Below, one piece after another: positions 4,609-60,659 of a stretch of 64,000 bases of DNA. Within the stretch, counting starts at the first letter, position 1, and each line of letters begins with the position of its first letter. A model generated the notes under the pieces. The model did not search any database. It was not told the origin of the DNA and was given only the letters and a program-made list of their open reading frames with translations. The position numbers were made by a program, and so were the translations under genes. Source of the DNA: Diphasiastrum complanatum (taxonomy: Eukaryota > Streptophyta > Lycopodiopsida > Lycopodiales > Lycopodiaceae); assembly GCA_029204225.1 (NCBI GenBank), contig CM055109.1, forward strand, positions 31,533,870 to 31,597,869, in the 5' to 3' direction.

Positions 4609-4775
4609 GACGTATGTGGTGTCATTGTCGAATGGTCTACCTGCCCATGAGTTACATATATGGTCGGCGTTATTCGAGTCCACTTACAAAACTAACAAGT
4701 GAAATTAGAAATGAGATCTTTGTGGTACCCTATAAAGAAGTTAACTGGGATTCAGCTCGAAATGATTGTGCAAGG
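4609..4775 (+). CDS. CAS1-like: Cyclase exon a (MWCHCR exon)
   Basis: The acceptor is GGCAG|GA and the donor AAGG|GTAAAT. The first two bases complete a split Gly codon, followed by 55 codons. It holds [18 protein letters not shown] and [17 protein letters not shown]. The His in MWCHCR is typical of cycloartenol synthases, where amyrin and lupeol synthases usually have Tyr. It corresponds to about residues 252-307 of Arabidopsis CAS1. Confidence 0.93.
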
Positions 4776-7085: not shown

Positions 7086-10000
7086 TTTATTAACGTCTTT
7101 TGGGCACCCGTGGGTGCATAAGACCAAAAAGAAAATATGTACAAGCAACAGTGGGAGCATCATCCATAGGAGGACGTGGCCATAAAATTCTATAAACTAG
7201 CTACGAATGAAAGTAGAACAAAGCAAAAGTGAAATAAGCCCACAACCCGGGCCAGGTATAACAGAAGAACTATAGAAAAAGTACCAATACCCACAACCCG
7301 GGCTAGGTGGAGAATAAGTACATATCAACGAAAGTAAGTGTGAAGTGTTCGTTGAGTGGAGCGGCCCCAATGGAGGCGAGTGCCGACTACATCTGGGCTT
7401 TTTCCGCGGTGGCACAGCGATAGGAATCTCATCATCGAAGTCATCAGCATGTGCTCGAGTCCGAAAGAAGCCAGTGAGAAGCAATTGCTAGGAGTCTAAC
7501 CCCAGGTGATTTGGTACAGGCAGATGAGACTGACGGAGAGTAAGCATCTTACGAACAAGAAGTCCCAAGCAACGAGCATCAGGATAGGAGACAAAACTGC
7601 GAAGTATGCGATCCATCGCAAAAGAGACAATAATACCTCCCTCGTATCTCATAATACAACGGACATCTAAGGAGGAAATGAGCTTCATCTTCCACCTCCT
7701 GCAACGAGCACAAGCGACATAGACGACGCTCCCGGGGGATATCCTATGCACGGACGTGGCCGACTGCACGTCGGGACCCAACTGGGGGCCATGTCCTGTT
7801 GACAGGGTTTCTAGATTGTGTTAGGCCCGCCATGGCTATGGATCGTGCTGGGGCACACTACTCACACTGTCTTGCCCTGTTGGTCGTGTACGCTGGACAC
7901 GACCCTGACTGTGGTATCTGACGTATCTGTGTTCTCTAGGGTTCGGCACTAGTCACGAGCTCGTAACACTCCCTCCCCCTTAAGACCCGTCTTGGTCCTC
8001 TAAGACAAAGTCTGGAAAAATCTTGCGAAGGACGCTGCCTCTTTCCCAAGTGGTATTCTCAACCGGCTGATCATTCCACTTGACCGGGTATTCTCGGTAT
8101 AGAGTATGACGAGTCTGCGTCTCTGTACTATCAAGAATCTCCTCTGGCTCATGTGGAGGTTGCTGAGAATCCAATGGGAGAACTAGAACACTGTCCCCTA
8201 CCAGATTTTCTGATCTAGCTAAGGCTTTTCGTAACTGACTTACATGAAAGACTGGAAAAACCTTACTACTGTGTGGGAGTTCTAGTTTATAGGTGACCTC
8301 GCCTAGTCTCCTACTGATGGTAAAGGGACCACAATACCTTGGAGACAACTAAGCACACACTCCTGATTTGAGGGTTTTAGAGTCAACTGGGACTCTCAAG
8401 TAGAATTTCTCACCAGCGGAGAACTGCACATCCCGTCTGTGTGGATCTGCATAATGCCTAGCTCGATCCTGGGACTGCCTAATGCTACGCTTAGCATGTT
8501 CTATTATTTGGTTTAGGTCCTCTAAAAAGTTTCTGGCTGCTTCAACTTTTTCTTGTTTAAACCCTACAGCTGTGGGTGAGCGTGGCTGAAAACCGTACAT
8601 CAACATAAATGGGCTGTATCCTGTAGCTGAATGTTTGGTACTGATGTAAGCAAACTCTAATATCGAGAGATACTCCTCCCAATTTGTCTGCTTCTTGCTG
8701 ACGTATGCTCGAAGCATATCCTCCAGCACCTGATTTACTCTCTCTGTTTGACCGTCCATCTGTGGATGGTCGGTGGTACTCATATTAAGTTTAGTATGGA
8801 GATGATGGAATACTGCCCTCCAAAAATTTCCATTAAACTTACTGTGTCCCGGTTGTTGACTATGCCGGAAGGTAGACCGTACAATTTAAATAACCCATTA
8901 ACAAACAACCCTGCTAACTCTGGAGCTCTAACGGTTGTTTTGGCCACAATAAAATGAGCCATTTTGGCCAGACAGTCAACTGTGACCCATATAGCGTCAT
9001 TACCCTTTTGTGTTAGGCAGTGTTACGAGCTCGTAACCAGTGCCGAACCCTAGAGAACACAGATAGGTCAGATACCACAGTCAGGGTCGTGTCCAGCGTA
9101 CACGACCAACAGGGCAAGACAGTGTGAGTAGTGTGCCCCAGCACGGTCCATAGCCATGGCAGGCTTAACACAGCCTAGGGACCCTGTTAGCAGGATAGGG
9201 CCCCCAGTTGGGTTCCGACGTGCAGTCAGCCACGTCAGTGCCACGTGGTCGACACTTGGCAGTAGCATGCTACCAGTCCTCACACTGGGCTAGGAGGGGC
9301 TTACTCAATATCAGGGAGTAGGCAAGGTGGGGTGGATCAGTTAGTGTTTGCCCTACTGTGGTGTTAGGATCTCTTACATTGGTATCAGAGCCATCTCCTT
9401 CTGTGGGAGCTTAGTACCAGCAGTAGAGAAATCTATCAGAAGGTAAGAAAGAATTCTCAAACTTTCAGAAAAGAGGAGAGGAGAGAAATCGCTGTAGTGA
9501 CAGACATCCATCGCTGCTTTTGCAGAGGAATTACTCATTTTTTGAGTAGAACCTGAGCCAGATTGCAAGTACAGATCAGTCGCTGTAAAGACTAGATATC
9601 TATCTCTGATTTGTGAGTGCAAACTTTAGAAATCAGAGCGGGTTTGAGGTAGAAATCTGGAAGTAGATCCAGAGCTGGATAGAGAGCAATCTCTGGGCAG
9701 ATTCATCACTGTTTTGCAGTGGATTCCTGAGCAGATGAGGGCGGATTTGAAGGATCAGATCTTTACTCAAAGCAGCGAGCAGTCTCCTTCAAACTCCAGA
9801 ATTTTAGACCGGTTTGTGGTCTTAAACTTGAGATTTCTAGAGCAGCAGACAGCGAGGGTTTCCCCCTTATCATAGATCAGAATTTTTCACAAGTTTTTGG
9901 GGCCCAAATTCCACTTTTTTGGAGTCATAACTCTGTGGAGCAGACAACGAGGGGCCTCCAAGATAGAAATCGGATTTTTGTCCACTGTGTAGGGTTTTCA

Positions 10001-13000
10001 AATCTGATTTTTGCAAGCAGATTGGTTGCTACTCAAACAGCGAGGGTGAAGAGCTAGCAAATTGGAAATTGTTTAAGAAGACGGATTGGACAGCTGCGGA
10101 AGAACTGAGGGGGTTTCTTGCTTTTCTCTCTGGAAGTACAATCCTACGAAAGAGCTAAGTATTCTACTTTCGTTTTTCCAGTTTAGTCAATCTCTTTTCT
10201 TATTTTTAGTCAGAAGTTAAGGTACCTCTCTTTCAGTTCCGAAGACGACCACTCCTCAGGGACCTGATCAACCCCAGGAGAGAGGCTTTGACGAACTTGA
10301 AACAGAAGCCTTGGCTTACAGAAAAGGGAAGGAACCCATGGAAGTGGAAGAACAGGAACAGTTCGCCGAAGAACTCGACGAACTGGTTACCAAGGAGCAG
10401 TTTCTCCAATTGGTAACAGAAGTGGATGAACTGAAGTTGGCATTAGCCAATTTCAAGTCCAGTGTGGACGACTCGTTCGCTGAAAGGAAGCCTTCCCTCC
10501 ACTTCTCAGTTATCCCCTTCTCCACTTCCATCAGTTTCGGGTGAGACTTTACGGTCTCACCCCAGTGTTTTTAAAGACTTAAAGCCTCCTACTTTTAATG
10601 GGGAAGAGAAGGATAGAAATGCAGATATTCTACAAACCTTCCTCAGCAAATGGAAGAACATTCATGCTCTTAAACAGACCCCTGACCATTTGCAAGCAAT
10701 TGAGGCCAGTCTTTCCTTGGGGCCTATGGCCTATAAGTGGTGGTTAAATCTCCAGGAGACTGGGCAGACTCCCCGGTCATGGAAAGCTTTTGAAGAAGCT
10801 TTCCTAAGAGAATTTCTACCAGAGAATGAACTTGATAAAGCCTGGGAAGCCTGGGAAAGAACAGTAATGGACAAGTCCCTCATCCAATATATCTCGCAGT
10901 ATCGAAAAGCAATTTTAAAGATTAAAAATATGGATGACTATCAGAAAATCAGGGGATTTGTCTGTGGCCTCAAAGATGAATATAAAGTAGAGGTCCAGAG
11001 AAACTCGCCTACTACCCTTGAACAAGCTCTCAGATATGCTCAGATCTATGATGATTCAGTGGGTAGGAAGAAGGCGAGACAACAGCCACTTTCTGAGCAG
11101 CCTTCTCAGAAAGACTTTCAATTTAAAAAGAAATTTTTAAAAAGAAAGAAAGAAGACAAATTTAAAAGTGAAGCTCCTCAGAAACGCCCTTCACTCATAC
11201 AGCCCTTAAAACCAGATGATTTTGAGAAAGCCAAACAAGAACGTTTGTGCTTTGTGTGTATGGGCAAGGGACACACAGTCAGACAGTGTCCCAAGGGGCC
11301 TTTCACTAAAAAAGATAAGAAAGATAAAAAACAAGTTCATCTTGTTCAGACTGTATGTTTCTCCAGTGACTCGGCAGCTTTCGAGATCAAAGTGTATCAT
11401 GAAGATCATGAACACTGTTGCCAGCTGACCTCTGCAATGCTAGCGAGACCCTTCAGCTTTGGGCCGCATGACCTAGTACGTATGCATGGGAAAGTTGGTA
11501 ACCAGTCAGTAAGAGTCATGGTTGATGATGGGGCAACCCATAATTTCATCAACCACACCCTGGTTAAAAAGCTTGAACTACCAGAAGTACCTAGTCAGCA
11601 TAGGTACATAGTTTCATTAGCTAAGGGTGAAGATAAAAAAATATGGGAAACTATGGTAAGTAAGTTAAATCTTGGTATTCAGGGGTACCAAGATGAAATA
11701 AACTTTCAGATAATGCACTTGGATCGAACAGACATTGTTCTCGGGAGAGATTGGCTCTACAGTTTAGGACCTTCCCTCCATAGAAACTATCAGGAGAACA
11801 CCCTCAGCTTTCAGCATAAAGGCCGAGAGATCCAGTTGCATGGGGAGCATGATGTTCCCAACAGCCCTTTGGTCTGCAGTTCAGAGCTCTGTCAGCTAAT
11901 CGGAGACGAAGACCATCAGGTATTCTTATGTGACTTTCAGTTTATTCCTGAAGTTTCTATTTCCAGTTCTATTCAGCAGAAAATCAGTAAATTAGAAACT
12001 TTATTGTCTAAATTTAAAGATGTTTTTCCTGAAGATTTGCCACATGGTTTACCACCTAGCAGAGAGGTAGATCATGTAATAAACCTAGTACCCGATATAG
12101 CACCTGTTTCTAAACCTCCGTATCGGGTCAGCCGAACAGAGGATGAAGAAATAACTAGGCAGTAAACAGACTATCTTGGGAAAGGCCAAATTCAGACCAG
12201 TAGTTCACCATGGGCCTCACCAGTCCTATTGGTGAAAAAGAAAGAGGGGTCTATGCGTCTTTGCGTAGATTACAGAGCCCTCAATAAAGTCACAATCAAG
12301 AATAAATACCCTATGCCTCGGGCAGACGAGTTGTTTGATCAACTCGAGGGGGCTAAGTTTTTCAGCAAAATAGACCTCAGATCGGGATATCATCAAGTCC
12401 GTATAAAATCGGAAGATGTCTCGAAAACAGCTTTTAGGACTCGTCACGGTCATTATGAGTTTAAGGTGATGCCATTTGGGCTCACAAATGCTCCAGCTAC
12501 CTTTATGACCTTGATGAACAGTGTCCTCAGACCATACTTGGGTAAGTTTGTAGTCGTATTTTTAGATGACATCCTCGTCTACAGCAAAACGAGGAAGGAG
12601 CATCTAAAACACCTCAGAAAGGTGTTTCGACTGCTCAGAAAGCATAAGCTTTATGCTAAACAATCCAAGTGTGAATTCTTCGTTGAAGAAGTAGCATATT
12701 TGAGTCACAATATCTCTTCAGATGGGATTAAGATGGACCCAAATAAGGTTAAAGCCATACTCAGTTGGCTGAGACCTCAAAATATTTTGGAACTTCAGAT
12801 CTTTCTTGGTTTGGCGGGATATTACAGACGATTTGTCAAGGAATATGCTCAAATAGCAGTTCCTATGACAAATCTTCTTAAGGGGAAGGGAAAGGAGTTC
12901 ATTTGGGAGTCCGCACAACAGGAGAGCTTTGATGCTCTCAAAACAGCCTTAGCTACAGCACCAGTTTTAAAAGTCGTCGACCCCAATCAGCCATTTGTGG

Positions 13001-50500: not shown

Positions 50501-53500
50501 CCATGTGGGGCCACCAAAAAGTGCCACATGGCTTATCGACCCCAAAGATATATGGAATTCAATTCTAGCCCTTTCTCCCCTCTCCAACTCCTACGTACCA
50601 CAGCTCTCTCCATTCCCTTGAAGATCTGTTGGTACAAAGAGGGAGGAAGGAGAAAGTACGGCCTAGCAAAGACAGGCCTCCAAGAATAATTACTCTCTTT
50701 TGGATTTTTTTTTTATATTTTTTTTTATTATTTCAAGTTACAGTTCAAAAATCTTTTATTATTTTAAACTTAGAAGCCAAGCTTTTCAACTACAAAAGCC
50801 TCATCCTAAGGGAGACGAGCAATCGTGGGAGACGTGCTGATAGGGCCGCGGGGAGGCGCGCCACTCCCCCCTGTCACATCAAAAGGTAATAAATACCCTC
50901 TCATCCCCTAGGCTTGGTGCAAGAACAGTTCCGCGGGTTAGCTGACTGAGTTACAGCCGTAAGGAAGGCACAAATTCGGGGGAGGTAAAACCCTCCCCCC
51001 CCCCCCCCCCCCCCTCTTTCCCCCCAAACTGCAAAGTTGAAACAACTATTGTAGGTACTAAATTGTACCTATAGATCTAGAAGTTTTTTTTTTCTCCCAC
51101 GGCGCCGGCCAGGCTACAGGCAGGCTTCCACAATTTTTCTGAAGCTACGATTTCTTTCCGCCTCCCCCCCCCCCCCCCCCTTGCGCAAACTGTCAGCGCA
51201 AAAAAAAGGCGTCCGTACTGTATTGATTTCAACCAGTAAGGTTAACAGACAGAGGGGGGGTTAGGAAAAGGTAAAAAAAAGGATCAAACTACCTCTCGTA
51301 CGGATTCCAATGTATTAAGCTGGACTCCCGAGACCGAAAGAAAGGCTTAACCAGATTAGCGGGCCTCCAAAGGTTCACTATAACCTTAGCAAAGTTCAAA
51401 TTATTTAAACTTGCAAAAAAAAAAGTTTAAAGGGAACTTTTTTGCAATCAAGTTCTTTCATTGCAAAAATTTATTAGGCCAAGGTTAATTAAGTGACTTT
51501 AACTAAACCTCAATTTTCCTACCCAGATTTGAATAGGCAGCTCTCCCTAGCACACATCTCCTGGCCTGGAGATACATCCTGGCTAATGCACGTGCTCTCC
51601 ATCCACCAACTCCCGGGTAGACTGAGTGAATGGAAAGAGGGAAACCCCACCACTATATAGGCATAGCACAGTGGGTCCCATAAAGCACGGTCCTGCCGGC
51701 GACACGTGACCACCTAGGGTGGTGACGCGTGGCACCTAACATGTCGATAACTCCAGTCCTGTGTCATGCCCCTTGCGAGGCCGTCACCGAAGGGCGTACC
51801 GTTATGGTACATAACAATCTGGTTGACATAAATTTTGTTGCAGTAAGAATATCTCTAGTACCAAGAGTGCAACAAGGCTTGGATTCCCATATGCAATAAG
51901 AGATCACAACGTAACAGGACAACAACATCTCCCTTTGATCTCATAGTAGACTGGGCATCCGAATATGAAGTGATCCTCGTACTCCACCTCATATAAGGAA
52001 CACAATTGGGAAATTCTCACCTCTCTCAACGTAAACTGGAAGCATCTAGTCTCAATCACAAGCTAGTATGATGAACTTGAAGTTCTCCCAATATGAACCT
52101 GAGACCATGAAATAGTTCTAAATCCAAATAGCGTGGTAGGACTGGGAACCTCACTGTATCCAACTCCAAAAAGTGAGTCCGATAATAGTAGATAAGTTTG
52201 ACCCCTAATTGGCCCTACCATGCTCGATAAAGATATTCTCTATATATGGACAGTATGATGTAGTCATGGGTACCTGATGGAAGATCTGTGATAGAAATGC
52301 CAAGTGTATCAAGTAAGTGGGGGCTTAGAAAAACCGTGACAACTAGTTATCCTAGCAATGAAGATGTCAAGATGAGGGAAGAGTTGCATATGTGTACCTC
52401 TACTCAGAGCTGGAAACTGATTGACTTGTAGGTCTATCTATGAAGTGTCTTAACCTCAATAACAGACACACAACATGAAAGATTGAAAGAAATTAGCTAT
52501 GGGAGCATTTAAAACCATGGAAACCTTAAGCAGCTCAAGAAAGCAAAAGTAGGAACTCAAAACGCTTGATTAGAGAGAGAGAGAGAGAAAGAAAGAAAGC
52601 TTTATTAATGTCTTTTCCATGCCAAAAGGCATACAAGACTAGTAAATGTACATGTCAAGTATGTGGTAACCATAGGAGTGTATGAAACGTCTCCAAAACA
52701 GTAACAAAAGTAGCAAATCTAGAGCTAAAGCTATAAACTGAAATAGATGTGATGCTATAAGAAACATGTGGGAGCATGTATACTGCTAACAGTCATGAGT
52801 GAGGTATCACGCTATCATCTAGTCCTTTCCTGCTGGTGCTGATGCTATAGAAGGATGTAATACGGCCTGCGGATGAAGGGCCACTGGTAGTCTCTGACGT
52901 CGTCTGGGAGGATGAAGAGGTCTCCTCGTGATAGGTCTAGTAGCTCGAGCTGCAACATGGGTATGTGTGGGACGCTGTCTCTGGTCTCTGTGGGCAAGTA
53001 GGTCATCATCATCATCATCGTCACCGTCATCAAAACGTCCTCTCCTCCTGGAGAAGAAAGAAGTGATCTGAGGCTGAGAAACTGACTCTGCTGGGCTGTC
53101 TGATATAAATCCTGTCGTAGTATAAACATCTCTCGTATCATGAGTGCCGCTCATCGGGAATCCTCATAAGCTATGAGCGATCGTAAGGTGACAGGTGTGT
53201 CTCGGAACAAACAGTGGTATCTCCCTCTGATCTCGTAATATACCGGGCACCTAAAGATAAAGTGCTCCTCTGACTCCACCTCCTCTAAAGAGCATAACTG
53301 GCAAATCCGCTCCTCTCTTGGGGTACCCTGGAATCTACCAGTCTCAATAGCCAACTGATGTGATGATACGCGGAGCTGACCCAATGTAAACTGAGGCAAT
53401 GTGATAGTCTCGAGTCCAAATAATGTGGTAAGACCGGGAACCCTGCCATGTCAAGCTCAATAAAATGAGTCCATTAGTAGCCGGGTTTAACCCCAAGCTG

Positions 53501-56500
53501 TCGCCCCCAAGTACGGTCGATATATGCCCGATAGAAGATGCACCTGATATACTGATGAGTACCTGAGGGGAGCTCTGTAATGGAGATACCAAATGACTCA
53601 AGGAGGAAATGGGATGCCTGAGAGAACCACGATAGTCGATAACCCTGGTCATGAAGAAAGTGTGAGGAAACAAGTGTTGTCTGTGTATATCTCATATCCT
53701 CATCGGGTAGAGCCTGGATTCTCTGAATGTATGTGATATGTTGGAATGCAGCATATATCTAAATGGGTGGAATGGCAAACTCTGCAAGAAGGATCTCATG
53801 TGGAACCGAGGGCTTTGCCCAAATCATACGAGCTAACATGGTGGTCTGCAATCGTGAAATGCTAGCCCAATGTGATGAAGGGAGGCATGTACACCGTCTC
53901 TACTGCATATAAGGCTGTGGGGGTGACAATAGTATCAAAGAGTTTACACTTACTGCGAGCATCTCGGATGAGCTTCTTGAAACAGAACCGCTCAAACTGA
54001 ACAAGAGAGGAATGCCCCTTCCCAAGTCGGGTGGTGGCAACCTGCCGCATGTTGAAGGTAGGACCAGAAAAGAGTATCCCCAAATAGGTATAAGAGGAAA
54101 CTACCTCTAAGGACTGTCCATCTAGGATGAGCTCCTGGCGCTGCATGAAGGCTCGAGAAGTGTTGAAGACCATAACCTTGGTCTTTGCAGTGTTCAACCC
54201 CAACCCCCATCTGGTACAAAATCCCTGTAAACAATCCAGCTGCCTCTGCAAACCCTCTCTGGTCGGGGATACTAGTACTACATCATCCGCATAAAGGAGA
54301 ATAGCAATCAGAATGGTGCCAAGTCTACAGCCACCCCCGCCACACTGTGAGATGACTCGCTCTAACTCATCAATATGCAATCCAAAGAGAACCGGTGAAC
54401 GAGAGCACCCCTGTTTCACCCCAATGGTGCTCCAAATGTGATCAGATAGGCCACTACTATGTCGGAAACATCCCAAGACCTTCTCATAAAGAGCCATCAC
54501 TGCTAGAACAATATCTGTGGAGAAACCAAGGTCACGAAGTCTCTGAATGAGCAAGGAGCGTGGTACAGAATCGAAGGCTTTCCTGAAATCCACAAAACAG
54601 CAGTAAACCCTCTCTTTCCTATACTTAGCTTCCTCAATCAAGGCTCAAAGTGTAAAAATATGGTCAGTGGTAGAATAATGAGATCGGAAACCTACCTGCC
54701 CCAATGCATGTAATCTCTGAGCTTCTGCCTCTGAACTCACTGCAGACTGGAGTATGGTACCATAGAGCTTCGTGAGAACATTTCCGATCATGATGGTGCG
54801 GTAGTTACCAGGAATCATAGGATCACCATTTTTATGAATATGGTGGATGATGTTGGTGCACCAGGATGAGGGGAAACCAGAGACAACGGCGGAATTGAGG
54901 AGAGTGGCTAGTGTGGGAGCAAGGAGGTCGGAAGCATGGATTAGGAGTTCAGATTCAAGGTCTTCGATATCTCTTGCTTTATGGGACTTCATTCTCTTGA
55001 TGGCCATAAGTACCATGTCAGATGTGAAGAAGGTGAACTCAGAGGGGCGTGGGGAGATAGAGATGGGTGCATCAGTGGGTAATGTTTGCCTTATTGTGGT
55101 GTTAGGATCTATTACACTGGTACCAAAGCCATCTCCATCTTTGGGAGCAAAAGCAGCAGTAGAGAAAGCTATCAGAAGATAGGAAATATTTCTCAGATTC
55201 TCAGAAAAGCATAGAGGGGGAGAATCGCTGTAGGAACAGCTTTCAAACCTTTGAATTTTGTAGAGAATTTACAGTAGTAGGAAGTACGATTCCTTGTACA
55301 GGTAAATCGCTGGAAAGGCAGCAATTTATCTCTAATTTCATAGATCTATTTTCAGATTTCAGAGCGGAATTAGAGTAGGAAGTAGCGAGCAGATCCATCG
55401 CTGTAGAATCAGCGACCTATCTCTGTTTTCGCAGTGAAATCTTTGCAGGTTTGAGCGAATTTCAAGTCAAAAATGGATGAGCAGGTCATCTCCCTAGGTC
55501 GAAGTGGACGAAGGTGCATTCTTGGTCAAAGACCAAAGCCCATTCAGCGCTGCTAGTACCTTTCGAAATTCGGATTTTTGAAAAAGCTTGGGCCTCAAAT
55601 CAGAAAATTCTGAGCAATACTACATCAGCCTGTCCAGCGAGCAGGGTGCCATCGAAAATCCAGAATTTGGAATTGTTTTTTGGCTTCAAATTTAATTTTT
55701 TTGGACCAACTTAGATGCAGTCAGATCAGGGAGGGTAGGCAGCTATCAACCTCAGAAAGTTTTGCACTTTTTTGGGTCCTTTGCCTGTTTTTTTTTTGAA
55801 CCCCACGTCTGCAATCAGATCAGTGAGCAACTCTACTCAAGAAACCGGAATTTTTGGTACCATTTTGGAGCCACAAACTGGGATTCTCCGGGACAGCAGG
55901 TCTGAAATTTTGGGTGGAAGAGCTGAGAGGGTTCCTCTTTGTATTTTCTTTGGAAGTACAGTCCTCAAAAACAGCTAAGTCTTCTTTCCCTCTTTGTACA
56001 GTTATAAATTAGTCTTTTTGACTTTTTTTGAAAGGAAACGTCAGGCAATCTTTTTCTAGCTCTGAAAAGGACCACTTCTCCGGGATCTGATTAACCCCTG
56101 ACAAGAGGCATTGATGAATTAGAAATGGAATCCCTAAGGTTCAGTAAGGGGAAAGAACCCATGGAAGTTGAAGAACAAGAACAATTCGCCGAAGAACTCG
56201 ACGAATTGGTTACCAAGGAGCAGTTTTTCCACTTGGTAATAGAAGTGGATGAACTGAACTGGCATTAGCCAATTTCAAGTCTAGTGTGGACGACTCGTTT
56301 GCTGAACTCAAAGGCTTGATTTTGAGTTCCACGAAAGGAAGCCTTCCCTCCACTTCTCAGTTGTCCCCTTCTCCACTTCCATCAGTTTCAGGTGAGCCTA
56401 TGCGGTCTCAGTGTTTTTAAAGACTTAAAACCTCCCACTTTTATTGGGGGAGAGAAGGATAGAAATGCAGACATTCTACAAACCTTCCTCAGCAAATGGA

Positions 56501-59500
56501 AGAACATGGGAGTGTTAGTGGTGGGTATGGTGTATAGTGTAGTAGCATAGGTAATCCAAGTATCTAGATCCTCTAGGAGAGCGGGTGGAGCATGAGGGAT
56601 GAACTTGTGCTAAAAAGCACTTGTGGAAGAGCTGAAAAGAAGGTCGGCAAGGTGTTTCCCTTAAATCCCATCGTAGGCTCCATCATTACAATGAAATGTA
56701 TGGTGGAAGTATTGACAAGTAGTATGAAGGAGGTGTGGTTCATTTAAGCGTGCATGTGTAACTCAATGGTAGTTATGGACTCGGCTCATTACATTCGCCA
56801 TGTCCATTTACATTTACTTTACTTTATGCATAGGCAGGCTTTGGGCCCTTTTTTTATTCATTATTTGACATTTAGACTATATGGTTGGCCTTGGGCCCTA
56901 TTATTGATATTTAGACCATATTATTGGCCTTGGGCCCTATCTTTCACTATATTGGTTATTTGGTCATATTACTGAGAGTGGGGGCCTTCTTGGAGGGCGC
57001 ACTATTTTCCCTCTCAGTTTGGCCCTAGCCACTGGAAGCTTCCTTTTAGAGCTTTCTCTTGGCTATAAGTAGGGATTCTGTGTCATTTGTTACTTGGCTT
57101 ATGATATGATCTTCTTCTTTAGTCTCTTTAAGCTTTCTCTCTCCTGCTTTCTAGGGTTAAGTCTTGCTTATGTGATGCTTTCATAGACTAAATCTAGATC
57201 AGCCGTGGCTACTTTCATAACTATGGTGTAAGGATAACTCAATGGTGTAAGGAACATCATCATCAAACCAAGGAGGCTTTGGGAAAAAACTGATGTGGGT
57301 GTGCATCAATGAGGCATAGTTAGGAAAGATGGTGAGGTAGCAATGTGGAGCGAGGTGGTGTGAAATTCGGCCTATAACTCCATTAGGCTATCATATGGAA
57401 AATGGTGAAGTAGTGAGGCGAGGACCTCCAGGTATTTTGTGATGTGGCCAATAGGATGAATATAGAAACCATGACTTGCATAGAATAACTGACCATGTGA
57501 ATAATAATGGCCGAGCCTTTGATACCATCTATACTGGTCCTTGTATGTCCATACCTATATCGAGTCAATGATGAAGGTAACTTGCTTAAAATAAGTAGTC
57601 AAAGTCGATGTTGTTGCACATAAGGAGTTACTCTTAAAGGATCCACTACTGTTTGAATTGAACGTGCTGTACACGGTAGAACGTGAGAGAAACGCAATTG
57701 TCTATCAGGTGATTTGCATGTCTGGATTTCCTTGGAATGTGTGTGATGTACATTTGCTTTCATTGTTCACAAATTTTCTTCATCTATGAGGTGATTTTTA
57801 TATTACAAAGCCCTGATTCAGTCATATTGATAAAAAGACTTGTCACCTTTTTTGGTGATATCTGTTTGTCTTCTAGGTATGGTTCATGGGGTGTATGCTT
57901 CACTTATGGGACTTGGTTTGGTATTATGGGTTTACTGGCGTCTGGAGAAACATACAGTACTTCTGCTTCTCTTCAAAATGCTTGCAGTTTCCTTCTATCA
58001 AAGCAGCTCCCTTCTGGTGGCTGGGGAGAAAGCTATCTATCTTCTCAAGATAAGGTTCAGCCTCTATATCTATGAATGGCATTGCATTTTTAGCAACTTC
58101 TGAGCTTGCAGTTGGGTTCTTGAATCAAATTTGGGTTACTAGGGAATTTTAACTAGATTCTGACCTTTCCAAGAAATGTTTGTACATTGTCATCAATGGG
58201 CAGTTCCCATTCCATTATAATTTTGCTTGCTACACAAAATTCCTGCTAGTGGGCCATGGCTGGTTGTGATTCATCTTCTTTCCGACATTTGTCTAACTGG
58301 CTAAGTGGCCATTGATATCAGAATTTTACACCTGTACGTACAATCGGAAGTATGACACGATTGGTTCTTTGTTGCTGGTCAGAAATGCCATGAAAGCTGT
58401 AGTTTAAGTTTCTCGAAGTGAATTTAATATGATGAAGAGTTTTAGCTAAAGTTTGAAGCTGGTTTTTGTTCAGACCTATACACACCTTGAAGGTGGTGAA
58501 GCACATTTGGTCAACACATCCTGGGCTATGCTTGCATTGATAGCTTCTGGACAGGTACCCTTGCATTTTTCATTCATCCTCCATTGTCTCATTGCTAGTA
58601 GCTCCTCTGAAGTCTGTAGAGACTGAAAAGGATGTTAATACATCTTAAAATAAAGCATGACAAAGTTTGCTTACAAAAGAATTGTGTAAGCTCTTAATTT
58701 CATGGTTTAATAAACTAAGAATATGCAGAGCTGAAGAATGCACTTGAAAATAACAGGAGGAAAAATTCATGCAACCTAGATGATTCAGAGTTAGACTTGC
58801 TTGTGACAACTGAAAAGCATCAAAACGTTTCAAACCATGAAGTCTAAGTTTTCTACAGTGATAGCTTCATGAAAATCTTATGGCTTGATAGATTGCAAGA
58901 GTTAGTCTAGCACCAAAACATCGTATAAAAAGATGTGATTTTCCCTTCACTACCATGGGACAGGTTGAGCGAGATCCAACACCACTACACAAAGCAGCTG
59001 TACTTTTGGTCAATGCTCAGTTCGAAAATGGTGATTATCCTCAGCAGGTATACTTTGTCTACACTTATTATGTCAAGATTGGCCTTTATCATCATGTGCA
59101 TGCAGGAAGCTTACTATGATGGTAAGTTTTCATACATGCGCCTTGTGATCTTCCACCCTACCCTATTCCCCTCTAGATGGTCAATGTAATCTTCACCTTT
59201 GCCTCTTAGAAAGCTTTGAAAAATAACTTAGCCTGGTCTGTGGTAGTATGCTCCAACAATTTTTTCCGGGTTCACATAATATGCGTCATAATATAAAATG
59301 GCCTTGTCATAACATAATGAGTCTGGAGAGGAAGACAAGGTGAAGAAGATGGTAGAGGACTATCTTTCCAAAGGGTTATATCATCCATGGTGTACACTGT
59401 ATACGCAGTTGTAAAACTATTCTAGTTATCTAGGTAATATTGAATAAAATATAACTTGGTTAGAAAAGGCATCTTTCATGTTGGATCTTGCGCTAGTCCC

Positions 59501-60659
59501 AAATGTGACTAGGGGTTGGTGGAAGCCAATGCCCTGAGATTATGGAGGCTGATTCTGCATGAGACAGGGGAGTCATTCTATGGTCTTTTGTTGTTCATTT
59601 TGGACCTAGAGGCTGGAAAGCTTTCTTGGAACATCATTTTGTACGGTATGGATAATAGCTGGGAGATTACTTGATTCTATGGTCTTTTGTTGTCCATTTT
59701 GGACCTAGAGGCTGGAAAGCTTTCTTGGAACATCATTTTGTACGGTGTGGATACCGTAATGCTACCCATAAAGTGCTGCATCCTAACTTTGGATAGCTGG
59801 GAGAATACTTGATTCCCTTGTGTGGTCCTCAAGGCTCAAGAAAACAAAAAATCGATGAGAAGGGTGGATTATCGTGTTTGTTCTAGCAAGATCCTGTTCT
59901 CATGTCCAGCTTTTTTCAAATCCAGCTGATTCTGTTGGGGGTCTTTCAATTTACTCCAGTTATGTAGTTGTAAAATAACACAAAAGGGATGGTTAAACCA
60001 TATTCAATAAGCTTGATTTTGCAATTGAATGTGACAAATTTTGCATGTAGCAACTTTCAAGTATGCATGCCATTGCTCTCTTAATTTTGACATGCCATTG
60101 CTCTGTTGATTTTGACATGCAAAAATGCTAGTCTTGCTAAAAGAAAGCCAAGTGCATGCTAGAAGATGCATGGATATTGCATTCTAGACTGCATGTATTT
60201 CTGACGGAATCAGTTAGCTTCCCAAATTGTTCCACATAGCATATCACTTTCTGCCAGTTTGAAGCACGGAATAGCTGTAAGGATATCATGCTTACAAATA
60301 GGGCATGACATTTTCAGACTGGAAATCAGTATTATTTATAATCTTCGTGTTTCTTGCTACTTGTCTAGTTTAGGTGTTTCCTTGTTAGATATACTGCATT
60401 AAGGTGCTGGCAGACTTTTCAATATTGAATGGGCTGTGAGAAATCATTTCAAAACTAGACATGATGAGAGTTCAGCTCTTATTTTAATACCCGGTGCATT
60501 TCAATGATCCTATGTAACAAATCTGACAATTGTCATGTAACTTTTCAGGAGATTATTGGAGTTTTTAACCGGAACTGCATGATCTCTTATTCAGCATATC
60601 GTAACATTTTTCCAATATGGGCACTGGGTGCATACCAGCATAAAGTCCTTGGACACTGA
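4609..60659 (+). CDS. CAS1-like: Oxidosqualene cyclase, probable cycloartenol synthase (13 C-terminal exons; 5' part outside window)
   Basis: The enzyme cyclises 2,3-oxidosqualene, in plants to cycloartenol, the sterol precursor; family members act at the ER. Exons: 4609-4775, 24089-24277, 28296-28409, 28559-28681, 30072-30194, 30285-30383, 38025-38081, 44513-44559, 44780-44923, 57877-58054, 58474-58554, 58964-59047, 60549-60659. They give 504 codons plus TGA, matching family residues 252-756 with no net indel. All introns are GT-AG and phases agree throughout. Visible motifs are [27 protein letters not shown] (protonating Asp; usual motif DCTAE), VECTSA and QW-type repeats. Y410, H477 and I481, which direct Arabidopsis CAS1 to cycloartenol, are all kept. 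Introns reach 19.3 kb and are packed with transposons. The N-terminal exons and promoter are outside the window. Lupeol or amyrin synthase is less likely because of the H and I residues. No break was seen, so I call it functional by inference. Confidence 0.93.
4776..5382 (+). other. Start of a 19.3-kb intron (4776-24088); no gene in this part
   Basis: Donor GTAAAT. The first 600 bases are AT-rich with no recognisable element. The remainder of the intron is described under the LINE and Ty3 entries up to 24088. Confidence 0.8.
5383..6115 (-). mobile_element. LINE fragment (3' end of ORF2)
   Basis: On the minus strand 5800 to 5580 encodes a segment ([33 protein letters not shown]...TLRSL) matching the C-terminal zinc-binding region of the better-preserved LINE at 52.6-55.1 kb ([23 protein letters not shown]). 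The part from about 5825 to 6010 resembles 57245-57430, so those two stretches share a repeat. Frameshifts and stops are frequent. No 3' tail is visible here. Confidence 0.65.
6116..6449. other. Intron sequence between LINE fragments
   Basis: No gene or clear element is recognised. It may be eroded LINE sequence. Confidence 0.4.
6450..7000 (-). mobile_element. LINE endonuclease-domain fragment
   Basis: On the minus strand 6895 to 6700 reads like an AP-endonuclease domain of a non-LTR retrotransposon: [47 protein letters not shown] and [10 protein letters not shown]. About 6660 to 6490 continues it in shifted frames (FGSKLLDM...[10 protein letters not shown]). It ends next to the AG microsatellite that is the tail of the neighbouring LINE copy. 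Frameshifts make it non-functional. Confidence 0.6.
7011..7080. repeat. (AG)35 microsatellite, LINE tail
   Basis: An uninterrupted 70-bp AG run. Read in the LINE sense (minus strand) it is a (CT)n tail directly after ATAAAGCTTT, as at three other LINE 3' ends in this window. The long SLSLSL reading frames over it are only translations of the repeat. Confidence 0.95.
7083..7750 (-). mobile_element. LINE 3' fragment with (TC)n tail
   Basis: Minus-strand 7740 to 7510 encodes the terminal zinc-binding part of the LINE reverse-transcriptase protein ([51 protein letters not shown]). About 400 bp of 3' untranslated sequence follows, ending ATTAATAAAGCTTT plus the TC tail. Its 5' end is cut at 7750/7751, where it abuts a truncated Ty3 LTR. 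Confidence 0.7.
7751..7968 (-). repeat. Truncated 3' LTR of Ty3 element G2
   Basis: On the minus strand it starts TGTTACGAGCTCGTGAC and follows the G1 LTR for about 218 of 358 bp, with scattered substitutions. It breaks off in the LTR middle at the LINE junction (7750/7751). The polypurine tract (AAGGGGGAGGGAG on the minus strand) lies just before it at 7969-7981. Confidence 0.85.
7969..9020 (-). pseudogene. G2 Ty3/gypsy pol, 3' half (integrase and chromodomain)
   Basis: Minus strand. The integrase core is in 9020-8349 ([38 protein letters not shown]). The integrase C-terminus ([17 protein letters not shown]) and a chromodomain-like end ([18 protein letters not shown]) are in 8348-7980. The second catalytic Asp region reads [12 protein letters not shown], where G1 has [12 protein letters not shown], and a stop separates the integrase core from its C-terminus near 8348. 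The element is interrupted at 9020 by G1 and resumes at 15373. Confidence 0.9.
9021..9378 (+). repeat. G1 5' LTR
   Basis: 358 bp, TGTTACGAGC...CTCTTACA. It begins with a short palindrome (TTACGAGCTCGTAA). Confidence 0.95.
9380..9391 (+). promoter_or_regulatory. G1 primer-binding site, initiator tRNA-Met
   Basis: TGGTATCAGAGC starts two bases after the LTR. It is the standard complement of the 3' end of plant initiator tRNA-Met used to prime reverse transcription. Confidence 0.92.
9392..10240 (+). other. G1 leader (5' untranslated region)
   Basis: About 850 bp without a coding frame. It contains repeated motifs such as 'ATCGCTG' and 'CAGCGAG' and is shared, diverged, with G7 (55107-56100). 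Confidence 0.75.
10241..12165 (+). pseudogene. G1 gag and protease
   Basis: Gag starts near 10241, where related copies G2 and G7 align (G2 has ATG then TTSPESDQP). Here the start reads AAGACGACC, so the ATG is lost; the next Met codons are 10311 and 10338. About 30 bp present in G7 are missing near 10482, which shifts the frame. The main frame then runs 10462-12165: capsid ([13 protein letters not shown]...[11 protein letters not shown]), a CCHC knuckle ([14 protein letters not shown], about 11250-11290), and the protease active site [12 protein letters not shown] (about 11518), with DDGA where most retropepsins have DSGA or DTGA. A TAA at 12163-12165 ends the frame just before RT. Downstream sequence continues in the same frame. 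Confidence 0.9.
12166..15003 (+). pseudogene. G1 pol: RT, RNase H, integrase, chromodomain
   Basis: An unbroken frame from the TAA at 12165, with the first Met at 12229 and TAA at 15001-15003. RT runs from [10 protein letters not shown] to [13 protein letters not shown] (catalytic DD at about 12565). RNase H has [15 protein letters not shown] and [10 protein letters not shown] linker rich in S, D and E lies at about 13490-13590. Integrase has the HHCC finger ([11 protein letters not shown]...CQKC) and a D,D,E core with [18 protein letters not shown] and DDQTERVNQ. The end ([21 protein letters not shown]) is a chromodomain, marking a chromovirus. It needs readthrough or reversal of the stop at 12163-12165 to be made as part of gag-pol. 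Confidence 0.93.
15004..15014 (+). promoter_or_regulatory. G1 polypurine tract
   Basis: The purine run TGGGGAGGGAG directly precedes the 3' LTR. This is the plus-strand priming site of LTR retrotransposons. Confidence 0.88.
15015..15372 (+). repeat. G1 3' LTR
   Basis: 358 bp, same ends as the 5' LTR, followed by the target duplication GGCAG. Confidence 0.95.
15373..18416 (-). pseudogene. G2 Ty3/gypsy, 5' half (gag to integrase), degraded
   Basis: Continuation of G2 after the G1 insertion. From the right on the minus strand: leader to about 18300; gag start ATGACCACTTCTCC near 18300; capsid (17827-17374); CCHC and protease ([14 protein letters not shown], about 17020); RT palm ([19 protein letters not shown], about 16760); RNase H (about 16320-15990, [13 protein letters not shown]); acidic linker; integrase zinc finger (15524-15430). 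The RT fingers are missing: protease sequence at about 16860 jumps to the RT palm at about 16830, a deletion of several hundred bases relative to G1. Many stops and frameshifts. The 5' LTR and PBS are gone; at 18416 it joins G3. Confidence 0.88.
18766..18860. repeat. Perfect 35-bp inverted repeat (foldback) in G3
   Basis: 18766-18800 and 18826-18860 are perfect reverse complements around a 25-bp spacer. Both arms derive from the same RNase H end ([12 protein letters not shown] region, G1 13325-13360), so a small piece of the element was copied or inverted in place. Confidence 0.95.
18924..20031 (+). mobile_element. Solo LTR or LTR-like insertion, 1108 bp
   Basis: Starts TGTTAGCAGATTCC and ends CTGTGAACA, flanked by ATCAA (18919-18923) and ATTAA (20032-20036), a 5-bp duplication with one mismatch. 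Removing it restores the continuous RNase H sequence seen in G1. A TATA-like box (TATTTAAGG, about 19304) and an AATAAA (about 19360) support an LTR in plus orientation. No coding sequence inside. The two ends are weakly inverted (about 12 of 15 bases), so a small TIR element is the alternative. Confidence 0.78.
20560..20702 (-). repeat. 5' LTR remnant of G3
   Basis: On the minus strand it matches the terminal 140 bp of the G1-family LTR (GTAGGGCAAACACTAACTGATC in the plus reading) and ends beside PBS-like sequence at about 20545. Confidence 0.8.
20706..22560 (-). pseudogene. Different Ty3/gypsy element G4, fragment
   Basis: Minus strand. The integrase HHCC region lies at 20950-20800 ([23 protein letters not shown]). 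RNase H and RT sequence lies at about 22540-22000 (plus-strand readings such as ACACAAATAATGCCTCCATA correspond to the conserved WRHYLxG region). The integrase sequence is clearly different from G1-G3. Frames are broken. An 802-bp solo LTR interrupts it at 21171-21972. No LTR of its own was recognised. Confidence 0.72.
21171..21972 (+). mobile_element. Solo LTR, 802 bp, TSD ATATA
   Basis: TGTTAGCAATTGTGC...CTTCCAACA, flanked by ATATA on both sides (21166-21170 and 21973-21977). It has a TATA-like CCATAAAAGG (about 21498) and no internal coding sequence. It is inserted in G4. The ends and promoter position suggest a copia-type LTR left by LTR-LTR recombination. Confidence 0.85.
22561..24088. 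other. End of the 19.3-kb intron; unassigned AT-rich DNA
   Basis: No gene recognised. Two stretches, about 22690-22755 and 23590-23655, are similar to each other (both contain 'TTTTGGTCC.TGC' and 'CTTGGG.'). This suggests an old duplication or two decayed copies of one coding segment. The intron ends GTGCAG at 24083-24088. Confidence 0.5.
24089..24277 (+). CDS. CAS1-like: Cyclase exon b (EDLYYPHP)
   Basis: 63 codons, phase 0 at both ends, acceptor GCAG|GAA and donor AAG|GTTACC. It begins [13 protein letters not shown] and ends [17 protein letters not shown], one of the best-conserved cyclase segments (about residues 308-370). Confidence 0.94.
24278..28295 (+). other. 4.0-kb intron
   Basis: Apart from the copia fragment at 26936-27165 no element is recognised. 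Two blocks of short direct repeats containing 'ATGTGTCA' and 'AAGTGTCCCAGTGA' (25560-25740), and 'CTCAGTGCATACA' (27570-27620), look like transposon remains without a class. Confidence 0.6.
26936..27165 (+). mobile_element. Ty1/copia RNase H fragment
   Basis: Across shifted plus-strand frames it reads [12 protein letters not shown] / [11 protein letters not shown], then [22 protein letters not shown], the segment between RT and RNase H of copia elements (compare YLTTTRPDICYAVGIVSQF and YGLIYRKHDGLPELCGYVDADC in C2). Too short and broken to classify further. Confidence 0.6.
28296..28409 (+). CDS. CAS1-like: Cyclase exon c (NMLCCWVE)
   Basis: 38 codons, phase 0/0, acceptor CCAG|GTG, donor [28 protein letters not shown] to LAEDGMKMQ (about residues 371-408). 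Confidence 0.94.
28559..28681 (+). CDS. CAS1-like: Cyclase exon d ([10 protein letters not shown])
   Basis: 41 codons, phase 0/0, acceptor GCAG|GGG, donor CAG|GTTTTT. The Tyr of [10 protein letters not shown] is the position called Tyr410 in Arabidopsis CAS1, one of three residues steering cycloartenol formation. About residues 409-449. Confidence 0.94.
28682..30071 (+). other. 1.4-kb intron with poly-C tract and hairpin
   Basis: No gene. It holds a run of 13 C (29400-29412) and a perfect 12-bp hairpin, GGGCTCTTTAAT / ATTAAAGAGCCC (29905-29916 and 29921-29932), with a 4-base loop. Confidence 0.7.
30072..30194 (+). CDS. CAS1-like: Cyclase exon e, catalytic Asp exon (DCSSE)
   Basis: 41 codons, phase 0/0, acceptor AAAG|GTA, donor AAG|GTGATT. 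It contains [15 protein letters not shown] and [15 protein letters not shown]. The Asp of DCSSE is the general acid that opens the epoxide. His and Ile at -6 and -2 from it are H477 and I481 of CAS1. The usual motif is DCTAE, so this copy differs at its third and fourth residues. About residues 450-490. Confidence 0.94.
30285..30383 (+). CDS. CAS1-like: Cyclase exon f
   Basis: 33 codons, phase 0/0, acceptor CCAG|GCT, donor [24 protein letters not shown] to [13 protein letters not shown] (about residues 491-523), less conserved in the first half as in other cyclases. Confidence 0.92.
30384..31984 (+). other. First part of a 7.6-kb intron (30384-38024); nothing recognised
   Basis: AT-rich, donor GTAAGC. 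Several short reading frames but no domain or element that I can support. Confidence 0.55.
31985..32300 (-). mobile_element. LINE reverse-transcriptase fragment
   Basis: Minus-strand reading [36 protein letters not shown] aligns with [17 protein letters not shown]...[18 protein letters not shown] of the LINE at 53.9-54.6 kb. Sequence up to about 32300 continues through the YADD region in broken frames. Confidence 0.65.
32301..33452. other. Intron sequence upstream of copia C1, with (CT)15
   Basis: A (CT)n microsatellite lies at 32522-32551. The 32590-32997 stretch is more GC-rich and open in several frames on both strands but has no recognisable domain. The last 400 bp may be the leader of C1; no LTR or tRNA-Met primer site was found there. 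Confidence 0.5.
33453..34250 (+). pseudogene. C1 gag
   Basis: Starts [17 protein letters not shown] with [18 protein letters not shown], typical copia gag (the UBN2 / retrotran_gag region), then an acidic/basic tail. The zinc knuckle [14 protein letters not shown] (about 34187-34228) lies in another frame, so the gag frame was lost in the AAGAAGAAGAAAGG stretch near 34170. Confidence 0.88.
34262..35260 (+). pseudogene. C1 pol part 1: protease and integrase N-terminus
   Basis: Protease active site [18 protein letters not shown] (about 34363-34415). The integrase zinc finger follows ([14 protein letters not shown]...[11 protein letters not shown]), and the core begins [15 protein letters not shown] and [18 protein letters not shown]. 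The frame breaks at about 35163 just after VLRSDRG, where one G is missing. Confidence 0.9.
35261..36780 (+). pseudogene. C1 pol part 2: integrase C-terminus and reverse transcriptase
   Basis: Begins with the integrase Glu region ([19 protein letters not shown], from about 35250), then the GKQ-type C-terminus ([20 protein letters not shown]) and an acidic linker. RT follows ([43 protein letters not shown], and the catalytic [10 protein letters not shown] at about 36640). The frame is lost at about 36745 in the segment that should read LGVEVW. Confidence 0.9.
36749..37400 (+). pseudogene. C1 pol part 3: RT end and RNase H
   Basis: [22 protein letters not shown] runs to FRQL, then a deletion removes the conserved VGSLIYLTTTRPD block, and sequence resumes at [22 protein letters not shown] stop lies near 37101 in STT*EAIW. 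RNase H ends with [13 protein letters not shown] and [14 protein letters not shown]. Confidence 0.88.
37401..38024 (+). other. C1 3' flank and end of the 7.6-kb intron
   Basis: The PPT-like run at 37482-37492 (GAGGGAGAGAG) should mark the start of a 3' LTR. No matching 5' copy was found before 33453, so the LTR length is unknown. The intron ends CCAG at 38024. Confidence 0.5.
38025..38081 (+). CDS. CAS1-like: Cyclase exon g (QW-type repeat, short)
   Basis: 19 codons, phase 0/0, acceptor CCAG|AAT, donor [28 protein letters not shown], the QW-type repeat segment (about residues 524-542). Its 3' half and donor are duplicated just downstream. Confidence 0.93.
38051..38214 (+). repeat. 82-bp perfect tandem duplication across an exon-intron boundary
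   Basis: 38051-38132 and 38133-38214 are identical by eye. Each unit has the last 31 bp of exon g, its GT donor and 51 bp of intron. The second donor is at 38164-38165. Using it would add codons ending in a TGA at the unit junction (38132-38134). Confidence 0.95.
38215..38716 (+). other. Intron sequence, no element recognised
   Basis: AT-rich, between the duplicated donor and the Ty3 fragment G5. Confidence 0.55.
38717..40440 (+). pseudogene. Decayed Ty3/gypsy fragment G5
   Basis: Plus strand. RT reading [47 protein letters not shown] (38770-38930) is followed by FLDD-region remnants with stops (about 38955). Integrase remnants are at 39490-40030 ([33 protein letters not shown]) and the integrase C-terminus at about 40080-40300. 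It is closest to G6 in wording (compare [17 protein letters not shown]). Highly eroded; no LTRs found. Confidence 0.75.
40441..44512 (+). other. Rest of the 6.4-kb intron; mostly unassigned
   Basis: No gene. A 9-bp GC hairpin (GGAAGGCCC/GGGCCTTCC) lies at 41404-41429. At about 41820-42000 one plus frame is open and rich in Q, S and Y ([20 protein letters not shown]...[10 protein letters not shown]), possibly a captured exon scrap. At 43230-43320 [18 protein letters not shown] resembles a retroelement gag. None is secure. The intron ends TGCAG at 44508-44512. Confidence 0.5.
44513..44559 (+). CDS. CAS1-like: Cyclase exon h (NPAETFGDI)
   Basis: 15 codons plus two bases of a split Pro codon, acceptor GCAG|CTC, donor [23 protein letters not shown] (about residues 543-557). 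Confidence 0.93.
44780..44923 (+). CDS. CAS1-like: Cyclase exon i (VECTSA)
   Basis: One base completes the split Pro; 47 codons follow, then two bases of a split Trp; acceptor ATAG|T, donor TG|GTAAGT. It has [16 protein letters not shown], containing the active-site Cys of VECTSA, and ends in the QW-type QRPDGSW. About residues 558-606. Confidence 0.94.
44924..45230 (+). other. Start of a 13.0-kb intron (44924-57876)
   Basis: No element recognised in the first 300 bases. The rest of this intron is LINE and Ty3 sequence. Confidence 0.6.
45231..46560 (-). mobile_element. LINE copy L4
   Basis: Minus strand. RT motifs in 46530-46330 ([40 protein letters not shown]). 46300-45800 aligns with 54460-53900 of copy L6. 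Its 3' end is a GA-rich stretch (45231-45276) followed by AAGCTTTAATATCC, the same order as other LINE tails here. 45280-45800 is too diverged or deleted to align with confidence. Confidence 0.72.
46570..47084 (-). mobile_element. LINE copy L5, 3' part
   Basis: Starts on the plus strand with GAGAAGAAAGAAAAGAAAGCTTTAT (the LINE tail and 3' end), then tracks 52600-53090 of L6. It stops at 47084 where G6 is inserted and continues at 51822. Confidence 0.8.
47085..47553 (-). repeat. G6 3' LTR, 469 bp
   Basis: On the minus strand TGTTATGTACC...GGAGTTGTAACA. It is preceded on that strand by the polypurine tract TATGGGGGGGAA (47554-47565). CACTATATAGGC in the plus reading at about 47388 gives the palindromic TATA-like box. 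It is at least 95% identical by eye to the partial 5' LTR. Confidence 0.9.
47566..50220 (-). pseudogene. G6 pol: RT, RNase H, integrase, chromodomain
   Basis: RT and RNase H run unbroken from about 50220 to 48954: [21 protein letters not shown], catalytic [12 protein letters not shown] (about 49890), [14 protein letters not shown] and [12 protein letters not shown] lysine-rich insert ([17 protein letters not shown], about 49570-49520) sits between RT and RNase H. Integrase follows in broken frames: HHCC region ([17 protein letters not shown]), [27 protein letters not shown] (about 48590) and [22 protein letters not shown] (about 48230). The C-terminus is [15 protein letters not shown] (about 47930) and a chromodomain remnant [20 protein letters not shown] (about 47670-47610). 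Confidence 0.9.
50221..50454 (-). pseudogene. G6 gag remnant fused to RT
   Basis: Minus-strand reading [46 protein letters not shown] and [13 protein letters not shown] is gag C-terminal capsid. After [10 protein letters not shown] it runs almost directly into the [12 protein letters not shown], so the zinc knuckle and protease have been removed by one deletion. Confidence 0.8.
50455..51537. other. Unassigned block with poly-C tracts inside G6
   Basis: Replaces the 5' end of G6. It has runs of 20 C (50995-51014) and 17 C (51164-51180), several A and T homopolymers, and a patch of high GC (50815-50875). There is an 86-codon plus-strand frame (50629-50889) with a hydrophobic stretch followed by [17 protein letters not shown] do not recognise it. 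The base texture is unlike the neighbouring transposons. An organelle-derived insert or a second element are both possible. Confidence 0.55.
51538..51816 (-). repeat. G6 5' LTR, partial
   Basis: 279 bp aligning with 47276-47553 with few differences (for example GTCCCATAAAGC for GTCCCATCAAGC). The remaining 190 bp of the LTR, towards the PBS, are missing. Confidence 0.9.
51822..52555 (-). mobile_element. LINE copy L5, 5' part
   Basis: Continues L5 beyond the G6 insertion. It tracks L6 53100-53800, for example the stretch around 52170-52300 against 53465-53590 (TGAGTCC..TAGTAG, ATGAGTACCTGA.GG). No intact frame. Confidence 0.75.
52561..55063 (-). mobile_element. LINE copy L6, 5'-truncated, with reverse transcriptase
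   Basis: The best-preserved LINE here. The 3' end on the minus strand is GGCATGGAAAAGACATTAATAAAGCTTTC followed by (TTTC)n and (TC)n (52561-52600). The 5' end is cut at about 55063 inside ORF2 at the junction with G7, so the endonuclease is missing. It is followed in the same orientation by L5 and L4. Confidence 0.88.
53862..55016 (-). pseudogene. L6 ORF2 reverse-transcriptase domain
   Basis: Minus-strand frame 55016-53862 with one TGA at 54645-54647. It has [89 protein letters not shown], and the catalytic [12 protein letters not shown] (about 54290). [15 protein letters not shown] then marks the thumb. The zinc-binding tail ([16 protein letters not shown]) lies at about 53300 in another frame, so the protein is broken after [10 protein letters not shown]. 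Non-LTR retrotransposon RT; the clade is not resolved. Confidence 0.9.
55064..56508 (+). pseudogene. Ty3/gypsy 5' end fragment G7 (G1 family)
   Basis: Plus strand. The last 43 bp of an LTR (GTGTTAGGATCTATTACA ends at 55106), a mutated PBS (TGGTACCAAAGCC), about 950 bp of leader, and gag N-terminus to about 56508 ([21 protein letters not shown], about 56165-56225). The gag start codon aligned with ATGACCACTTCTCC of G2 reads AGG here (about 56068). It retains the roughly 30 bp that G1 has lost. It breaks off in gag. Confidence 0.85.
56509..56739. other. Intron sequence, unassigned
   Basis: Nothing recognised between G7 and repeat R copy 2. Confidence 0.4.
56740..57200 (+). repeat. LTR-like repeat R, copy 2
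   Basis: Plus-strand relative of 4165-3842 with the same landmarks, including GTTATGGACTCGGCTCATTAC, three spaced copies of CTTGGGCCCTAT or similar, CACTATTTTCCCTCTC and a TATA-like GGCTATAAGTAGG. Divergence and indels are considerable. Confidence 0.55.
57201..57876 (+). other. End of the 13.0-kb intron
   Basis: 57245-57430 resembles 5825-6010 (shared wording ATATGGAAAATGGTGAA / ATGTGGAAAATGGTGAA), so it is another copy of that repeat. The last 300 bp, ending TTCTAG at 57876, are probably original intron. Confidence 0.5.
57877..58054 (+). CDS. CAS1-like: Cyclase exon j ([14 protein letters not shown])
   Basis: One base completes the split Trp, then 59 codons; acceptor CTAG|G, donor [28 protein letters not shown] lines the active site, followed by the QW-type repeat [17 protein letters not shown]. 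About residues 606-665. Confidence 0.94.
58474..58554 (+). CDS. CAS1-like: Cyclase exon k ([10 protein letters not shown])
   Basis: 27 codons, phase 0/0, acceptor TCAG|ACC, donor [29 protein letters not shown] to LIASGQ (about residues 666-692). Confidence 0.94.
58964..59047 (+). CDS. CAS1-like: Cyclase exon l (last QW-type repeat)
   Basis: 28 codons, phase 0/0, acceptor ACAG|GTT, donor [28 protein letters not shown] and FENGDYPQQ (about residues 693-720). Confidence 0.94.
59048..60548 (+). other. 1.5-kb intron with tandem duplications
   Basis: No gene. It holds a 99-bp direct repeat and a short 31-bp duplication near 60065-60125 (CATGCCATTGCTCT twice). Confidence 0.65.
59575..59754. repeat. 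99-bp tandem duplication
   Basis: The segment starting ATTCTATGGTCTTTTGTTG at 59575 recurs at 59674 and matches over about 80 bp with two differences. A partial third copy of the unit end (ATAGCTGGGAGAATACTTGATT) lies near 59792. Confidence 0.88.
60549..60659 (+). CDS. CAS1-like: Cyclase terminal exon m
   Basis: 36 codons and TGA, acceptor [26 protein letters not shown] then [17 protein letters not shown]. The family usually has ALGEYR followed by a few residues. The stop is at the expected place, giving about 756 residues overall. Confidence 0.94.

Follow-up and report, generated by a model that had tools for sequence, protein, structure and literature searches.

A clubmoss gene with retrotransposon-filled introns: a predicted cycloartenol synthase of Diphasiastrum complanatum

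We find that a 64,000-nucleotide stretch of Diphasiastrum complanatum DNA (the window) probably carries the 3' two thirds of a gene for cycloartenol synthase, one of two loci seen, which would be spliced normally across introns swollen by retrotransposons. On this account repeated and partly nested retrotransposon insertions would have enlarged the introns, the locus would produce a full-length transcript, the 5' exons would be situated farther upstream, past additional long introns, and the product would be cycloartenol, the plant sterol precursor. The gene is already annotated in this region as one model with the exon chain of the original prediction.

The frame is joined from thirteen exons on the plus strand between 4609 and 60659, all of them located where they had been predicted. 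Exon 1 of the window (4609..4775, 167 bp) translates as R-M-W-C-H-C-R and onward and is identical to the public protein P0001. It is followed by exon 2 (24089..24277, 189 bp), exon 3 (28296..28409, 114 bp), exon 4 (28559..28681, 123 bp), which encodes the equivalent of Tyr410, and exon 5 (30072..30194, 123 bp), which encodes the catalytic Asp motif DCSSE and the equivalents of His477 and Ile481. Exons 6 (30285..30383, 99 bp), 7 (38025..38081, 57 bp), 8 (44513..44559, 47 bp), 9 (44780..44923, 144 bp), 10 (57877..58054, 178 bp), 11 (58474..58554, 81 bp), 12 (58964..59047, 84 bp) and 13 (60549..60659, 111 bp including the stop) complete the chain. Their summed length of 1,517 bp corresponds to 504 codons and the stop. 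All 12 introns are bounded by GT-AG, the junction phases agree (phase 0 in ten introns, phase 2 in introns 8 and 9) and the joined exons contain no internal stop. From the first to the twelfth, the introns measure 19,313, 4,018, 149, 1,390, 90, 7,641, 6,431, 220, 12,953, 419, 409 and 1,501 bp. The product is the C-terminal 504 residues of an oxidosqualene cyclase and aligns without insertion or deletion to residues 253-756 of P0003, a relative of 756 amino acids. Thirteen in-phase exons of this total length, with GT-AG introns and no stops, a fit to family residues 252-756, and introns of 19.3, 13.0, 7.6 and 6.4 kb beside introns of 90-220 bp had all been predicted, and all were reproduced. 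The description of the frame as intact holds for the C-terminal two thirds only, as the window is without residues 1-251; from residue 252 to the end, signs of a pseudogene (stops, frameshifts, loss of splice sites, loss of introns) are absent.

When P0001 and three relatives served as tblastn queries, the matches on the exons reached about 31-145 bits, against about 20-25 bits elsewhere in the window. The sole meaningful match outside the exons (24-27 bits) is a duplicated end of exon 7. At 38051..38216 on the plus strand, a perfect tandem duplication (82-bp unit, 100% matches) repeats the 3' end of exon 7 together with its donor, so that a second GT donor stands at 38164. Splicing from this second donor would lengthen the transcript by 82 bases and put it out of frame, leading to a stop, and the P0001 protein is consistent with use of the first.

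Assemblies often fail in repeat-rich regions, and the present region is one, so the exon chain might be a chimera assembled from two loci. We regard this as very improbable, given that all junctions are in phase, that one intronic element is flanked by a perfect target-site duplication, and that an identical exon chain is present in the public model, which lies on a 49-Mb sequence, although that model may rest on the same assembly.

The enzyme family is clear from domain and structure searches. The product matches SQHop_cyclase_C (Pfam PF13243) at 4.6e-49 over profile positions 4-318 of 319, and marginally the related Pfam model TED_complement; the N-terminal domain PF13249 reaches 23.7 bits against a cut-off of 26.2, with residues 1-251 lying outside the window. 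Among solved cyclases it matches PDB chains 8j5z, a terpene cyclase/mutase (9.2e-185), and 1w6k, a lanosterol synthase (1.8e-145). In Arabidopsis numbering, Tyr410, His477, Ile481, Tyr532 and Asp483 are all retained in the window copy; Asp483 we take to be catalytic, and Tyr532 is presumably product-determining. According to one report, His477 and Ile481 are strictly required in all CAS1 enzymes, Tyr410 is marked as well, and CAS1 is essential to sterol synthesis (PMC4208727).

A protein search scored 7,993 candidates and returned 5,774 matches, the best 120 of which were listed. Among these 120, the matches beyond P0001 and a second Diphasiastrum protein, P0002, are 65-73% identical to the window product. 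In a tree of 48 rows drawn from the 120, with 27 of 45 inner branches at the support mark of the tool, the two clubmoss copies form a pair with 100/99 support, and this pair joins the Selaginella cycloartenol synthase P0039 at 96/89; P0039 sits on a long branch and its placement is flagged as unsure by the tree tool. Named mosses, ferns, conifer and flowering plants fall in separate groups. No lupeol, amyrin or onocerin cyclase was deliberately added to the tree, so that it places the gene among cycloartenol synthases only. By its diagnostic residues and its position in the tree, the window gene is a predicted cycloartenol synthase, and it resembles plant CAS1 in identity, in these residues and in grouping with Selaginella.

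It differs from CAS1 in covering residues 252 to the end only, in its acid motif, DCSSE in place of DCTAE, and in the loss of one Trp, at Arabidopsis position 322, which is Ser in the window copy and Trp in 118 of 118 others. The motif was considered as a sign of catalytic decay and rejected, because its Asp is retained and DCSSE also occurs in three relatives (P0003, P0004 and P0006); Selaginella P0039 and P0005 from Goniophlebium have DCTSE. Both clubmoss copies share Gly275Ser and Tyr559Cys (Arabidopsis numbering), Cys559 being present in 2 of the 118 others as well. That this common Tyr-to-Cys change might hit Tyr532 was likewise excluded, its position being 559 and Tyr532 being retained.

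The two shared changes, and the departures of both copies at many conserved columns, would also suit a different function, in which both copies are specialised clubmoss cyclases, making for example onocerane or serratane triterpenes and not sterols. A precedent exists in Lycopodium clavatum, where alpha-onocerin is reported to be made by two paralogous cyclases (PMC6929605). Nevertheless, Tyr410, His477 and Ile481 are retained, and the pair groups with the other lycophyte enzyme that is named as a cycloartenol synthase, in a comparison outside which the L. clavatum onocerin cyclases lie. We therefore hold a specialised function to be quite improbable and keep to a sterol cyclase.

The top match, P0001 (608 residues), is hypothetical protein O6H91_18G055400 of D. 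complanatum (Lycopodiaceae, clubmoss), and all 504 of 504 window residues are identical to it in the protein search. P0002 is O6H91_13G104400 of the same species, with 434 of 504 residues (86%) identical in the joint alignment; we read '18G' and '13G' in the locus tags as chromosomes. These are the only two Diphasiastrum-named entries among the best 120 matches. The sources given for both are ncbi, uniref and nr, and none is 'lgn', which we take to stand for assembled reads.

P0001 extends 104 in-family residues upstream of the first complete codon of the window. Its start corresponds to an internal Met near residue 150 of full-length relatives, so that about 149 N-terminal residues are absent. 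An exon for residues 1-251 was not found in the window by tblastn with P0001 and three full-length relatives, and when the first 150 residues of P0003 were used as a query, none of the best 120 of 291 matches was a Diphasiastrum-named entry. The P0002 model also is without its N terminus, and it contains 27 extra residues where exons 10 and 11 meet. In P0002 a Leu precedes the shared exon at the place where the acceptor CAG stands in the window frame, and the splice acceptor at this junction may have changed. The original prediction had warned that such genes are easily split into several models or masked as repeats. Here all 13 exons are correctly linked in the public model, whereas the missing N termini of P0001 and P0002 and the 27 extra residues of P0002 bear the warning out in part. 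A caution follows for users of these data, as both D. complanatum sterol-cyclase models found are without N termini. It is conceivable, if rather doubtful, that both copies are very large and transposon-filled, with 5' exons too far upstream for public annotation. If this were true, an essential clubmoss sterol gene would be spliced across a span well above 60 kb, and the duplicate donor of exon 7 would make splicing measurably leaky in one copy. Among the papers listed for this gene or for intron length in Diphasiastrum, a set outside which the genome paper lies, none describes the gene as judged by title and the start of the abstract.

Could the window copy instead be a decaying or silent duplicate, its intact frame a remnant not yet broken, with O6H91_13G104400 supplying the enzyme? 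Several observations point this way. In the 48-row tree the branch of the window copy is longer than that of the second copy (0.15 vs 0.062). At the 263 columns conserved in at least 95% of sequences, the window copy departs 15 times and the second copy 9 times; the 118 others have a median of 2, and the five most divergent among them have 8, 8, 10, 13 and 21. The invariant Trp is gone, the exon 7 donor is duplicated, the public model P0001 is without a proper start, and the sequence cluster of the second copy has 8 members against 3 for P0001. Yet the 504 codons are without stop or frameshift, and 12 of 12 splice-site pairs are GT-AG. In Tajima relative-rate tests, the Selaginella outgroup gives 27 vs 17 unique changes (chi2 2.3), and of seven outgroups in all, one takes chi2 above 3.84 (6.1) while six leave it at 0.4-2.7. 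The second copy's own model, moreover, is itself truncated at the N terminus and carries the 27-residue insertion.

The distribution of substitutions also speaks against silence. We polarised changes against the sister copy and against a consensus of the 118 relatives, with conserved columns set at 95% or more. The window copy had changed at 9 of 254 conserved columns and at 18 of 116 others (odds ratio 0.20, p 1.2e-4); for P0002 the counts were 3 of 248 conserved columns and 14 of 112 others. Substitutions avoided the important positions, so constraint acted on the window copy during at least some of the period after the two copies diverged, although a recent silencing would look alike. At the level of protein sequence, we read the gene as one under purifying selection, which may be somewhat relaxed. 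A silent duplicate seems to us unlikely, though it deserves serious consideration, and we favour a working cycloartenol synthase gene.

What fills its introns? Elements were detected by self-comparison, by Pfam searches of 40 of 171 open reading frames (at least 70 codons) and by tblastn with 20 window reading frames. As delimited in this analysis, recognised elements make up 28,483 of 54,534 intron bases (52%), probably an underestimate because their non-coding parts were mostly not sought, and they are present in five introns only (1, 2, 6, 7 and 9). The Ty3 sequences, spread over introns 1, 7 and 9, represent at least five elements, as had been predicted and as Pfam and tblastn reproduced; two have LTR pairs, and one of these a target-site duplication. 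The latter is a Ty3/chromodomain LTR element in intron 1 (9021..15372, plus strand), with LTRs 97.2% identical and the 5-bp duplication GGCAG. Its gag-protease frame (10447-12162, 572 codons) and pol frame (12166-15000, 945 codons) are divided by a single in-frame TAA at 12163-12165, which is either decay or a feature of the family. At least two older, rearranged Ty3 copies lie on the minus strand of intron 1 (7748..20702), one apparently split by the 9021..15372 element, and tblastn with window reading frames added a divergent Ty3 pol fragment there (21974..22535, minus strand). We had considered a circularly permuted Ty3 element with LTR halves at 7748-7974 and 20558-20702, and discarded it because the sequence beside 20702 is the mid-pol of another rearranged copy.

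Intron 7 contains a degenerate Ty3 pol (38722..40083, plus strand), recognised by self-comparison and Pfam/tblastn. Intron 9 contains a Ty3 element on the minus strand (47274..51819) with LTRs 96.8% identical, for which no target-site duplication was found within 60 bases, and a Ty3 5' fragment on the plus strand (55065..56517) comprising the leader and the start of gag. If rates between 1e-9 and 1.3e-8 per site per year are assumed, which are not derived from clubmosses, the age of the two LTR pairs would come to about 1 to 16 million years. The single copia element of the original prediction corresponds to a large coding region with a broken frame in intron 6 (33429..37385, plus strand; Pfam and tblastn), and to it must be added a weak copia fragment in intron 2. 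The term LINE-like is used here for one reading frame matching RVT_1, with an adjoining sub-threshold zf-RVT match, and for pieces similar to those frames. Such pieces number six where about seven had been predicted; they include two fragments in intron 1, one in intron 6 (31883..32201, minus strand) and one in intron 9 (45808..46534, minus strand), the last two found by tblastn with window reading frames, as well as the pieces at 51823..55065 in intron 9 (minus strand), which hold the reverse transcriptase and the weak zf-RVT match.

The original prediction held that insertion was tolerated in some introns only. We simulated insertions falling uniformly per intron base, in eight settings of 3,000 runs each, and find that in 82-100% of the simulated genes at least 5 of the 12 introns escape insertion, because enlarged introns offer a bigger target for further insertions. 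Uneven intron sizes are thus expected, and no special tolerance is needed. If anything, with 7 of 12 introns above 1 kb, growth is more evenly spread than models with small ancestral introns predict. Seven or more introns were hit in 0-4.5% of runs when ancestral introns measured at most 450 bp; with ancestors of 1 kb the share was 0.3-37%. Growth over more introns than in the simplest models indicates that probably some introns were already long ancestrally, or that the model is too simple.

Transposons inserted in introns while exons were retained, as two LTR pairs and one target-site duplication attest here, have been described in other plants. The fern Ceratopteris is reported to have very long genes through transposon insertion in introns, with 17,745 introns above 10 kb; its gene length is uncorrelated with expression, and similarity-based prediction failed for some of its MADS-box genes, presumably from large introns (PMC9477723). 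Introns grown by transposons are common to both cases, whereas ours is one gene of a clubmoss. Such growth is likewise reported for a conifer (PMC4108047) and for gymnosperms generally (PMC9364684), where, too, one or few long introns per gene contain LTR elements and LINEs (PMC4108047, PMC9364684); the clubmoss gene belongs to a different lineage and contains mainly Ty3 elements. Transposon-inflated introns being already published for ferns and conifers, the clubmoss gene is an ordinary case and leaves current views unchanged. It is a clean one-gene example of a lycophyte gene that grew by intron insertion with its coding frame staying open. The new details are the perfect 82-bp duplication of the exon 7 donor and the loss of the invariant Trp.

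The remainder of the window offers minor observations. Scanning for Rfam families and tRNAs yielded no matches in the window. A 99-bp tandem repeat (1.8 copies, 97% matches) lies at 59575-59753 within the last intron. Downstream of the gene, a minus-strand frame of 270 codons (63120-63929) gave no Pfam match and is 60-63% identical to the copia 3' coding region at 36800-37385. A minus-strand frame at 1423-1827, upstream of exon 1, matches DUF659 (4.4e-31), a domain that we take to belong to hAT-type transposon proteins.
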